Of a stretch of 64,000 bases of DNA, positions 13,054 through 55,970 are shown piece after piece. How positions within the stretch are numbered: position 1 is the stretch's first letter; each line of letters starts with the position of its first letter. Under the pieces are notes generated by a model that had not been told where the DNA came from, searched no databases, and saw only the letters and a program-made list of their open reading frames with translations. The translations under genes and the position numbers were made by a program. Source of the stretch: Planococcus wigleyi (GTDB lineage: Bacteria > Bacillota > Bacilli > Bacillales_A > Planococcaceae); the NCBI RefSeq assembly GCF_014836985.1, contig NZ_JACSPU010000003.1:1-64000 (forward strand). The letters are read 5' to 3'.

Positions 13054-13097
13054 AAAGGCGCATCCCCCGTTTATCCGGTGGGATGCGCCTTTGTTTT
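13054..13097. terminator. Bidirectional terminator
   Basis: 13-bp perfect stem AAAGGCGCATCCC / GGGATGCGCCTTT between the RsbR-like gene (plus) and the GGDEF-EAL gene (minus). Confidence 0.88.
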
Positions 13098-14914
13098 CAT
13101 TGGATGGATTTTGCAGCGGGCTGATAAAACTCTTTGATTTTTTCAGGCGGCAACGGCGGGTTAAAGTAATATCCTTGTGCCTGATTGCAGCCTTGTTGTT
13201 TTAGGAATTGCAGTTGTTCTGCAGATTCGACACCTTCAGCTATGACATTCAGCTGCAGGTTGTGCGCCATTTGGATGATGGTATCGACAAGTGCCGCGTC
13301 TTTTGGATCCGTAGTGAGGTTGCGGGTGAAACACTGGTCGATTTTAAGGGTATCAATCGGAAACAGCTTCAAATAGCGGAGCGATGAATAGCCGGTGCCG
13401 AAATCATCAATGGACAGATGAATGCCCATCGCCTTGAGTTTCCCCATTGTTGAGATAGCGCTGGGGGAGTCTTGGATAATGCTTTCAGTCAGCTCCAGTT
13501 CCAGGTAACGTGGAGCGAGTCCCGATTCCGACAGTGCGGCCTGAACGGTTTCGGTCAAGTTGCTTTGTGAGAACTGGCGGGAAGAGATATTGACGGCAAC
13601 CCGAAACTGCGGCAATCCAGCCTTCTGCCAGGCCATGTTTTGCAGGCAAGCCTGCCGCAGAACAAATTCACCAATCAGGATGATGCTGCCTGTTTCTTCT
13701 GCGATGGGAATAAATTCAGCAGGCGAGACGTTCCCCCATTTGGGATGTGTCCAGCGAAGCAAAGCCTCCAGCCCCACGGTCTTTTCGGTTTTTAAATCGA
13801 TTTGTGGCTGATAATGAAGAGAGAATTCACCGCGTTCCAAGCCTTTTTTCAAATCCATGGCCAGTTTGGATTTTCTGGAAACCAATTGATTGGTTTCTTC
13901 TGAGAAAAATTGAAAATTATTTTTGCCATGATCTTTTGCTGAGTATAATGCAATATCTGCATTTTTTATTAACGTCTCTACGTCGTTGCCATCAGAAGGG
14001 AATCTGCTGATGCCGATGGATGGCGTGATAAATAATTCTTCCTGCTGGAAATGGAAAGGTTCTTCAAATAACTCCAAGATCGCTTGTGCATGAGCAGCTG
14101 CTTCTGCATCATCGGTATTCGGCAATAATAGGATGAATTCATCTCCACCCAAACGGGAAATGGTGTCATTTTTTCGTGCGATGCTTTGGAAACGCTCAGA
14201 TGTTTTAATCAATAATTGATCTCCAGCAGAATGGCCATAGGTGTCGTTGACTATTTTGAAATGGTCCAAATCAATATACAGGAGGGAGAAACTTTGCTTA
14301 TTTCCATCCGCCTGGTCTAAAGCAGCTTGTATTTGGTCAATGAAAAGACGGCGATTTGCCAAGCCGGTCAAGGAATCCCGGTAAACGAGCGTGTTGATCT
14401 TGGCTTCCGTATCTTTCCGTTCGGTGATGTCGCGGATGATGCTGCTGAAAAATATACACTTATCTGTTTTCCAGGTTCCGAGAGACATTTCAATCGGAAA
14501 CTCACTGCCGTCTTTGCGGCGGCCAATCAATTCAACCCGTGTGCCGATTACATGGGGGACAGCAGTGTCCAGGTAACGCTTTAATCCTTTCCGGTGTGCC
14601 TCCCGTAAAGGCTTGGGAATGATGATTTCTAAATTAGAACCCAACGCTTCGTCTTTGCTGTAATGGAATATCGCTTCGGCGCCTGAGTTCCACTGCAGAA
14701 TAATGCCTTGGTGGTCCGCTACGATAATGGCGTCAGTAGTGGATTCGAAAATCGATTCGAACTTCTTTTCCGATTCAGCGGAATTCGCTTTCAGCTGGAG
14801 CTTTTGGCGCTTCCGTGAACAGAAGAAAAGCAAGGTCGCCAACAAGAGGGAAACGGAAAGAATAATCGGCAGAAAAACAGGAGAAAGCTTATCTGTGATT
14901 GAAATAATGTCCAT
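13097..14914 (-). CDS. Membrane PAS-GGDEF-EAL protein, c-di-GMP turnover
   Basis: 605 residues. One N-terminal membrane helix (15-34), PAS (about 50-165), GGDEF (170-335) and EAL (345-600). The diguanylate cyclase motif GGDEF (256-260) is intact, and an RxxD inhibitory site (R247-D250) sits five residues before it. The EAL motif is intact (E383-L385), with N442, ELTES, DDFGTGYSS (503-511), K524 and E560 present, so phosphodiesterase activity is also expected. Such proteins may be bifunctional or dominated by one activity; sequence alone does not decide. It is a plausible source of the ligand for the flgB riboswitch and the PilZ protein. It is monocistronic. Confidence 0.92.
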   Translation of the reverse strand: MDIISITDKLSPVFLPIILSVSLLLATLLFFCSRKRQKLQLKANSAESEKKFESIFESTTDAIIVADHQGIILQWNSGAEAIFHYSKDEALGSNLEIIIPKPLREAHRKGLKRYLDTAVPHVIGTRVELIGRRKDGSEFPIEMSLGTWKTDKCIFFSSIIRDITERKDTEAKINTLVYRDSLTGLANRRLFIDQIQAALDQADGNKQSFSLLYIDLDHFKIVNDTYGHSAGDQLLIKTSERFQSIARKNDTISRLGGDEFILLLPNTDDAEAAAHAQAILELFEEPFHFQQEELFITPSIGISRFPSDGNDVETLIKNADIALYSAKDHGKNNFQFFSEETNQLVSRKSKLAMDLKKGLERGEFSLHYQPQIDLKTEKTVGLEALLRWTHPKWGNVSPAEFIPIAEETGSIILIGEFVLRQACLQNMAWQKAGLPQFRVAVNISSRQFSQSNLTETVQAALSESGLAPRYLELELTESIIQDSPSAISTMGKLKAMGIHLSIDDFGTGYSSLRYLKLFPIDTLKIDQCFTRNLTTDPKDAALVDTIIQMAHNLQLNVIAEGVESAEQLQFLKQQGCNQAQGYYFNPPLPPEKIKEFYQPAAKSIQ

Positions 14915-34354: not shown

Positions 34355-34514
34355 GGTCTTTTCTCCTTTTTGAACAACGGTTAGTATTTCTCGCGTAGCA
34401 TACCATTAAAAAAACGAAAAAAATAGAGACTATTCTATTAAAATGGAAAAAATATGATAAAAAATTTTATTAAATAAAAATATACAAAAATGTAGAAACA
34501 TGATACTATCACTT

Positions 34515-34523: not shown

Positions 34524-34569
34524 TTTTTGAAAATAGTACGAAATAACGAGTTTGAAAATCAAATACTTG

Positions 34570-34708
34570 AAATCATTGTGATAATGGCAAACTTATTCGA
34601 AAGATAAAGACGCAAAGCCACGGGCCTAAATACGCAATGTACAGGGCAGCCGGGTTACCAAAAATGGTAGATTTGAAAGAAATCCACCTTTTTTAAGGGT
34701 GGATTTTT
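34570..34708 (+). ncRNA. c-di-GMP-I (GEMM) riboswitch with terminator
   Basis: The aptamer (34570-34674) has the invariant GEMM blocks: GGCAAAC, a GAAA tetraloop in TTCGAAAGA, GACGCAAAGCC, GGGCCTAAA, GCAATG and GGGTTACC. Both Gs before CAAAC are kept, which favours c-di-GMP over cGAMP. The expression platform: AAATCCACC / GGTGGATTT (34680-34706) is a perfect 9-bp terminator with Ts. GGTAGATTT (34666-34674) can instead pair with AAATCCACC as an antiterminator. The GATTT part can also close the aptamer by pairing with AAATC (34570-34574). Ligand binding should therefore free the terminator: an OFF switch for flgB and what follows. Confidence 0.9.
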
Positions 34709-34744
34709 ATATACCAAATAACTGTAAAAAAAAGGAGTTTATTG

Positions 34745-35146
34745 ATGAATATATTCCCTAAATCTCTGGAAACGATGGAACAAGCTTTATCGGCTTCCAC
34801 TTTACGTCAACGGGTTCACTCGGCAAACATCGCCAATGTGGATACGGCCAACTACAAAAGCAAAAAAGTCGATTTTCAAGCGGCCTTGGATACAGCAATG
34901 AATAAGCAAAGTTTAACGAGTTATAAAACAAATGATCAACATCTATCGTTCAGCAATGAAGTTTCCAAAACGACGACAGAAATCACCACTAATCATTCCA
35001 CTCAATACAACAACAATGGCAACAATGTCGACATGGATGCCGAAATGGCCGAGCTGGCCAAAAACCAATTATGGTATAACGCGGTCACTGAACGGGTCAA
35101 CGGCAAGCTTAACAGTCTCAGCTCCGTCATTAATGGAGGGAGATAA
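34745..35146 (+). CDS. flgB: Flagellar basal-body rod protein FlgB
   Basis: 133 residues. LRQRVHSANIANVDTANYKSKKVDF is the rod-protein motif; the C-terminal half has NNNGNNVDMDAEMAELAKNQLWYNAV, as in FlgB. AAGGAG stands 7 bases before ATG 34745. First gene of the long operon, directly behind the c-di-GMP riboswitch. Confidence 0.95.
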   Translation: MNIFPKSLETMEQALSASTLRQRVHSANIANVDTANYKSKKVDFQAALDTAMNKQSLTSYKTNDQHLSFSNEVSKTTTEITTNHSTQYNNNGNNVDMDAEMAELAKNQLWYNAVTERVNGKLNSLSSVINGGR

Positions 35147-53907: not shown

Positions 53908-53943
53908 GGGCGGTTTTTTCGCTTGGAAATGGTGGTGAAAATC

Positions 53944-54702
53944 ATGCTGAACCAGAAACTATCAAAAGAAGAACTTAATTATTGGGGTGACTGGCAACAG
54001 CACCGGGATCCGCTGGCTGGCGAGTATCTGGTTGAACAGTATCTTCCATTAGTAGATTACGTCATTCAACGCTTTATGATCAGTTTGCCCAAAACTGTGG
54101 AAAAAGATGATGTCCGCAGCTATGCCTATGAAGGATTGCTTGATGCGTTGAGCAAATTCAACATCGAGCGGGATCTGAAGTTTGAAACCTATGCTTCCTG
54201 GCGCATTAAAGGGGCTATTATTGATGGGCTGCGGAACAGTGATTGGCTTCCGCGTTCTGTCCGGGATAAAGTGAAAAAAATTGAAAAGGCCTATCTATTG
54301 CTGGAACAGGAGAATAACGAATCGGTCTCTGATGACCAAGTCAGCGCCTACTTGGGCATCACCAAAGCGGAACTTAACAAGACGGTTTCTGAAGCCGCCT
54401 TATCGACAATGATTTCAATGGATGATGAACATTTCCAAGAGCAAGGGACAATGGGTAGCTACTATGCCGATTCCCCTGAACGTCACCTGTCAGAGCAAAT
54501 GACTAAGGAATCATTAGTCCGTGCGATTGATAAATTGCCGGAAAAAGAAAAAATCACTGTTTCTCTATGTTATTTTGAAGAAATGAAATTAACCGAGATT
54601 GCGGAAATTCTCAATGTCAGCGTTTCAAGAGTCTCACAGCTTCACTCGAAAGCCATGCTGCGTTTGCATGCTTCGATTTTATCCGTACATGATAATTATT
54701 AA
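53944..54702 (+). CDS. sigD: RNA polymerase sigma factor SigD/FliA
   Basis: 252 residues. Region 2: DVRSYAYEGLLDALSKFNIERDLKFETYASWRIKGAIIDGLRNSDWLPRSVR-type, region 4: LTEIAEILNVSVSRVSQLHSKAMLRL. It recognises the TAAA-N15-GCCGATAA promoters seen upstream of hag, flaG and yvyF. ATG 53944 fits the GGTGGTGA site and the usual N terminus; in-frame starts at 53923 and 53929 are poorer. It is inhibited by FlgM. Being behind the riboswitch, the late genes are indirectly under c-di-GMP control. Confidence 0.96.
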   Translation: MLNQKLSKEELNYWGDWQQHRDPLAGEYLVEQYLPLVDYVIQRFMISLPKTVEKDDVRSYAYEGLLDALSKFNIERDLKFETYASWRIKGAIIDGLRNSDWLPRSVRDKVKKIEKAYLLLEQENNESVSDDQVSAYLGITKAELNKTVSEAALSTMISMDDEHFQEQGTMGSYYADSPERHLSEQMTKESLVRAIDKLPEKEKITVSLCYFEEMKLTEIAEILNVSVSRVSQLHSKAMLRLHASILSVHDNY

Positions 54703-55619: not shown

Positions 55620-55970
55620 ATGGGAGAAAATCGTCGCGAGTTTTTTAGGGTAGTTTTTAATCAGGCCGTAACTGGTAAAGTATCGGTTTACGGAGGCAGA
55701 TTCTTGCCGATTGAGATTTACAATGTCAGTGTAGGGGGACTGACATTTTCTTCAGCGCTTAATATTCCTTTGCAGGAAAGTGTAAATTGCAGCTTTCAAA
55801 TACTGGACAGCGCTTTTCTGTTGCCAGGGGCGATTGTTCGAAAATCAACAAGAGTGGACACCATAGAATACGGAGTTGAGTTCTCAGTAAATCAGGGAAC
55901 TTCTTCGGAATTATTCAAGCAACTGAATTACTACCAGATTCGTCAGCGCAAAGGTTTATTGGCAGAGTGA
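55620..55970 (+). CDS. Single-domain PilZ c-di-GMP receptor
   Basis: 116 residues, one PilZ domain. The RxxxR motif is RREFFR (5-10) and the second motif is NVSVGG (35-40), together the c-di-GMP site. It lacks the YcgR-N domain of B. subtilis DgrA/YpfA, so if it brakes the motor it does so as a lone PilZ domain. Last gene of the flgB-to-sigD operon, which itself begins with a c-di-GMP riboswitch. GGAGAGGG precedes the ATG. Confidence 0.88.
   Translation: MGENRREFFRVVFNQAVTGKVSVYGGRFLPIEIYNVSVGGLTFSSALNIPLQESVNCSFQILDSAFLLPGAIVRKSTRVDTIEYGVEFSVNQGTSSELFKQLNYYQIRQRKGLLAE

Follow-up and report, generated by a model that had tools for sequence, protein, structure and literature searches.

Does the leader of the flagellar gene block of Planococcus wigleyi sense cyclic di-GMP (c-di-GMP), and if it does, would the bound ligand permit or prevent transcription of the genes behind it? 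The locus lies in a stretch of 64,000 nucleotides of contig NZ_JACSPU010000003.1, referred to here as the window. When covariance-model search, leader comparison, and folding are considered together, they argue that the flgB-block leader is a c-di-GMP-I riboswitch that turns transcription OFF through premature termination, a reading to which we assign a probability of about 0.87.

The aptamer and its ligand-specificity base

An Rfam scan identifies a c-di-GMP-I (GEMM-I) aptamer, RF01051, at 34576-34662 on the forward strand, scoring 75.1 bits (gathering score 35; E value 6.3e-13). The match is full length (model positions 1-87) and assigns the leader to the c-di-GMP-I family. This bears out the class I aptamer before flgB that had been proposed in an initial sequence-only reading of the DNA, and the strings quoted in that reading are all present where it had placed them.

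The base recommended there for mutation, G34587, is off by one if G20 of Vc2 was meant. The Rfam structure line places G34587 in helix P2, as its first paired base, which rules it out as the specificity base, and position 20 is G34586 (Table 1). The predicted pocket contains this G, the conserved AA that precedes it, the A residues at 34614-34615, which separate P2 from P3, and C34658, and thus holds equivalents of A18, G20, A47, and C92, those of A18, A47, and C92 being assigned by position in the Rfam alignment. All conserved core bases of the window aptamer are intact. The base at position 20 touches one base of the ligand; the cGAMP riboswitch structure has A there, and a G20A form of the class I aptamer has been crystallized with cGAMP (PMC6274999).

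Table 1. Features of the flgB leader and the downstream block (window coordinates), with the loci of the A20 leaders
Feature	Position	Strand	Basis
Probable sigma-A promoter: TATACA 34481-34486, 17-nt spacer, TACTAT 34504-34509, extended -10 TGA	34481..34509	+	read from sequence
Conserved box (TGAAAATAGTACGAAATAACGAGTTTG) 5' of aptamer	34528..34556	+	upstream alignment
P1 5' strand (P), AUCAUU	34572..34577	+	pair counts
Ligand-specificity base, equivalent to G20 of Vc2	34586	+	Rfam column 11, unpaired base preceding P2; PMC6274999
Antiterminator strand (A), AAAAAUGGUAGAUUU; includes P1 3' strand AAUGGU 34663-34668	34660..34674	+	pair counts
Switching strand (T), AAAUCCACCUUUUUU: antiterminator 3' strand plus terminator 5' strand and loop	34680..34694	+	pair counts
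Terminator 3' strand (H), GGUGGAUUU 34698-34706, with U-tract 34704-34708	34698..34708	+	stem, folding, covariation
flgB, first gene; ATG 34745, GGAG 34734-34737	34745..35146	+	Flg_bb_rod match; FlgB profile
sigD-type sigma factor	53923..54702	+	Sigma70_r2, Sigma70_r4
Single-domain PilZ protein, 116 aa, RREFFR and NVSVGG motifs	55620..55970	+	PF07238; translation
A20 flgB leaders: L025, L020, L022, L024, L026, L031, L042, L044, L053, L056, L062; plus L082			

Leader architecture and support for the helices

From the probable sigma-A promoter, transcription would start at about 34516. The promoter block, TGATACTAT, is conserved in nearly all aligned flgB leaders; a consensus scan did not list this promoter. 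A box of the CAAAAT...GAGTTTA type sits between the start site and the aptamer in most flgB leaders. A possible outer helix joining GAGUUUA (34548-34554) to the loop of the antiterminator was set aside, as the 5' element is conserved and the loop is not.

The perfect terminator claimed in the sequence-only reading is present as AAATCCACC/GGTGGATTT, a 9-bp stem without mismatch followed by U5, with a hairpin energy of -14.8 kcal/mol. The consensus scan of the forward strand did not list it, probably because the short U-tract lies partly inside the stem. Only about 36 nt separate this tract from flgB. The antiterminator proposed in the same reading, GGTAGATTT/AAATCCACC, does exist as a pairing, but it contains one mismatch (A34669/C34685) and the helix is longer than claimed, extending by AAAAA (34660-34664) and UUUUU (34690-34694) to the full 34660-34674/34680-34694; this hairpin reaches -7.7 kcal/mol in the window. 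The T strand starts 17 nt past the end of the Rfam aptamer, which makes for a very short platform. Compared with 2000 dinucleotide shuffles, the region 34660-34712 folds better than 1994 of them, and not one shuffle gives antiterminator-like and terminator-like hairpins both at the observed strength.

Pairs were counted for the named structures over 30 distinct aligned flgB leaders. For P1 (34572-34577/34663-34668), 81% of cells are paired, against 58% in the best slid register, and seven cells carry two-sided changes; the extended antiterminator has 86.8% of cells paired with 10 two-sided changes, and the terminator has 90.6% with seven. None of 500 shuffles equals any of the three helices, either in percentage paired or in count of two-sided cells. 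With sequences that are related, such counts should not be read as probabilities; slid registers are the safer control, although they too favor a structure derived from these same sequences. The AAATC/GATTT pairing, which had been read as closing the aptamer, is complementary here but shows no two-sided change and is equaled by 492 of 500 shuffles; the pair counts thus rule it out as P1.

When rows from Paenisporosarcina, a Bacillus metagenome-assembled genome, and three further genera are added, P1 at 34572-34577/34663-34668 is favored again and AAATC/GATTT is not. The antiterminator signal becomes weaker with these distant rows, yet stays above every slid register. One clade has AAGCU/AGCUU in place of GAUUU/AAAUC, and its antiterminator still forms. 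P1 misfits the aligned register in L004, L028, L032, and L007, and the U-tailed hairpin is kept in all aligned flgB leaders.

A predicted OFF switch by premature termination

By its coordinates, the 3' strand of P1 lies wholly within the antiterminator strand, and consequently aptamer closure and antitermination are mutually exclusive. The antiterminator in turn overlaps the U-tailed terminator, covering its 5' arm plus its loop. In the absence of ligand, strand A would pair with strand T once T has been made, and this pairing would hold the terminator 5' arm and loop, allowing read-through into flgB and from there to sigD and pilZ. Binding of c-di-GMP would stabilize P1, which occupies the center of strand A; the antiterminator would then not form, T would pair with H, and transcription would stop at about 34708. 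The OFF logic put forward in the sequence-only reading is thereby supported by the overlapping exclusive helices and by covariation across leaders; that the ligand binds and that the response is termination is what we infer from them.

In the ligand-free partition function, the upper helix of the antiterminator reaches 0.84-0.99 for transcript ends 34684-34700, and the terminator wins from ends 34702-34704 onward. The antiterminator is therefore strongest while the terminator 3' arm is unmade, and because roughly the last dozen bases of the transcript are shielded by the polymerase, it can persist through the decision. At equilibrium, ligand present or not, the terminator prevails, so the OFF logic rests on kinetics, and simple thermodynamics is unusable as proof of direction. 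ViennaRNA, whose scoring leaves tertiary contacts out of account, places the forced aptamer plus P1 fold some 10 kcal/mol higher than the unconstrained ensemble. Among the class I switches of Clostridioides difficile, all functional ones are OFF switches (PMC6200980).

The flagellar gene block downstream

The leader stands, as had been claimed, before a flgB-to-sigD block. This block of about 21 kb (34745-55970) begins, by Pfam matches, with flgB, flgC, fliE, fliF, fliG, fliH, fliI, fliJ, fliK, and flgD; continues through flgE/G-type, fliM, fliY/N-type, fliO, fliP, fliQ, fliR, flhB, flhA, and flhF genes; and ends with an FlhG-like ATPase, the sigD-type gene of the sigma-70 family, DUF6115, DUF327, and PilZ. 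No chemotaxis-family genes were matched between flhG and sigD, and within the flgB-sigD interval, promoter and terminator signals did not rise above chance. The whole block would thus be transcribed from the promoter at 34481-34509, with predicted effects on late genes exerted through sigD.

In C. difficile, control of early and, through sigD, late genes by the one switch Cd1 is already established (PMC6200980, PMC5386303). The gene order found here, with flgB first and sigD in the same block, is of the Cd1 type, and one switch could govern both gene sets in the window genome. It is plausible that the PilZ protein acts as a brake, as its RxxxR and NxSxxG motifs are present; a PilZ homologue lies about 21 kb 3' of flgB in nine genomes.

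Distribution in Planococcus and loss of the aptamer

RF01051 is present in 42 of 46 Planococcus genomes, with 31 matches before flgB and 36 before p2, which encodes a conserved secreted protein. Of the 35 genomes that bear flgB, 31 have the switch before it. The remaining four (G006, G009, G027, and G045) lie in the window's own clade. Their leaders, contained in the first 500 bases of L226-L229, lack the GEMM-I core, which other sequence replaces, but retain promoter, upstream box, and U-tailed hairpin. No Rfam family was matched at the replaced site in these four genomes at E values up to 1. In L226 and L227, a possible new hairpin, UCCCUAUCAUUCU/AGAGAAUGAGGGA, occupies the place of the aptamer. 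All four genomes have an open flhA, 95-96% identical, and retain the p2-linked switch.

The p2-linked riboswitch of the window genome (L002, 1501-2501; 36 relatives in the genus) precedes a secreted protein of 289 amino acids without a Pfam match, and its expression platform looks translational from the sequence. The predicted structure of p2 (mean pLDDT 81) resembles TIM-barrel glycosidases of the GH18/PgaB type, and its profile finds a match in PDB 10yv, which is a putative glycoside hydrolase. Further RF01051 copies (L005, L006, and L008; L035 and L080) stand before a subtilisin-like secreted protease and WxL-domain surface proteins; the copy before the protease has a U-tailed terminator.

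The switch and FlgB types in other Bacilli

Outside Planococcus, among about 60 flgB loci examined in other Bacilli, the aptamer adjoins flgB only in L082 and L087. The contrast drawn in the sequence-only reading with B. subtilis holds, as none of 14 control genomes, B. subtilis among them, has an RF01051 match. In Bacillus salacetis (L141, 1975-2069), a match to the c-di-GMP-I-GGC variant RF03167 (61.9 bits, gathering score 59) lies some 430 nt 5' of flgB; it shows no evident connection with that gene and was rejected as a flgB switch.

Within the family, 32 genomes of other genera yield the switch in G062, G118, G121, and G172. The family FlgB proteins (loci L230-L258) form two groups split by a 100/100 branch, and the switch occurs in nine of 10 rows of one group and in none of 16 of the other. 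GlmS pairs G061 with G062, and places G116 near G118 and G121, across this FlgB divide. As close relatives by GlmS differ in FlgB type, it is likely that the flagellar operon was replaced together with its switch, within the limits of one marker gene for each side of the comparison. This suggests that the switch travels between genera with one type of flagellar operon.

A clade with A at position 20

In 11 Planococcus genomes, which make up the citreus/maritimus clade (100/100 support), the flgB-linked aptamer carries A at position 20 (Table 1). The same base is found in Paenisporosarcina sp. OV554 (L082), which is placed separately from the Planococcus A20 clade; an A20 match in L210 was discarded as a chance match within a coding region. 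The p2-linked aptamers of the A20 genomes keep G20. Hairpin strengths are inverted in this clade: the antiterminator reaches -11 kcal/mol in eight genomes and about -8 in three (window, -7.7), and the terminator only -6.5 to -9 kcal/mol versus -14.8 in the window. The simplest reading is that the A20 aptamers continue to respond to c-di-GMP, though at a changed affinity. It seems unlikely, at odds that still deserve mention, that the A20 and aptamer-less leaders read a different signal or that another regulator uses the retained terminator.

The window genome has 15 GGDEF-domain matches and two PilZ proteins. Some 20 kb upstream of flgB, the window encodes a PAS-GGDEF-EAL protein on the reverse strand (13097-14914). 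G000, G005, and G018 share an orthologous GGDEF group (L200, L210, and L217) in which Asn replaces the guanine-binding Asp (GHQSGN).

Alternative readings

These data also bear on whether the natural ligand might be a cyclic dinucleotide other than c-di-GMP, for instance 3',3'-cGAMP. The A at position 20 of the sister clade is the cGAMP riboswitch letter (PMC6274999, PMC8835794), but the window aptamer has G there and so falls outside GEMM-Ib. The readable GGDEF domains of G000, G005, and G018 have Asp (one orthologous group has Asn) and never the Ser of Hypr enzymes, and a SMODS/DncV-type nucleotidyltransferase was found in none of 12 genomes, all 11 A20 genomes included. With the search for cGAMP synthases covering the Hypr and SMODS families, the window's own genome shows no DncV-type synthase, and no Hypr GGDEF (Ser for Asp) was read in it, two of its 15 matches (L202 and L203) being unread by the motif search; the same holds for the Hypr enzymes of the A20-clade genomes G005 and G018, with two matches per genome unread. 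We accordingly regard another ligand as highly improbable.

An ON switch, in which ligand promotes read-through, or a leader that controls flgB translation is only a little easier to credit and remains very unlikely. There is precedent for such behavior in the pilM (cGAMP) relative of the same aptamer class, which is an ON switch (PMC9262584), and in L002, the other riboswitch of the window genome, which lacks a terminator and whose ribosome-binding site can pair in a hairpin. At flgB, however, the P1 3' strand is inside the antiterminator strand and not the terminator, the ribosome-binding site lies outside the switch helices, and the U-tailed hairpin persists in every aligned leader. Least probable of all is a decaying, non-functional relic: loss of the aptamer in four genomes of the window's own clade would fit it, but the window keeps the complete conserved core and the three exclusive helices. 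A c-di-GMP-responsive OFF switch by termination is therefore the reading carried forward here.

Relation to known systems and significance

The nearest known system is Cd1 (Cdi-1-3) of C. difficile. The two share the aptamer class, the place before flgB, and sigD inside the early operon (PMC6200980, PMC9262584, PMC5386303), as well as OFF control by premature termination (predicted here), the P/A/T/H order, and a P1 that competes with the antiterminator (PMC9262584). They differ in that the window switch belongs to Bacilli and Cd1 to Clostridia, that the window T strand begins 17 nt past the aptamer whereas the Cd1 antiterminator folds from nucleotide 134, that in the window no invertible flagellar switch separates the riboswitch from its gene, and that a PilZ gene closes its block.

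The GEMM-Ib or 3',3'-cGAMP riboswitches of Geobacter have the same fold and share A20 with the citreus/maritimus clade and Paenisporosarcina. They differ from the window switch, which has G20 and is found without Hypr GGDEF (in the genomes examined) or DncV-type synthase, and they serve other genes in another sense of regulation. Bacillus methanolicus MGA3 is a member of Bacilli that has both c-di-GMP riboswitches and a long flgB operon, whose gene order is that of B. subtilis, but its riboswitches precede sinI and genes of unknown function or signalling, not flgB (PMC4342826). No Rfam match was found upstream of flgB at the B. methanolicus locus (L098). The searchable literature, with most subscription journals outside its coverage, yielded no description of a c-di-GMP riboswitch in Planococcus.

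The arrangement is thus known from C. difficile, and the flgB-block example described here adds Bacilli. It would place direct c-di-GMP control of a whole flagellar block in aerobic, non-pathogenic Bacilli, whereas B. subtilis shows none of these riboswitches. Planococcus offers a natural series at one locus, from the intact switch through the A20 variant to the lost aptamer, and as c-di-GMP signalling is otherwise kept genome-wide, it becomes directly testable how ligand choice evolved and how the switch came to be lost.
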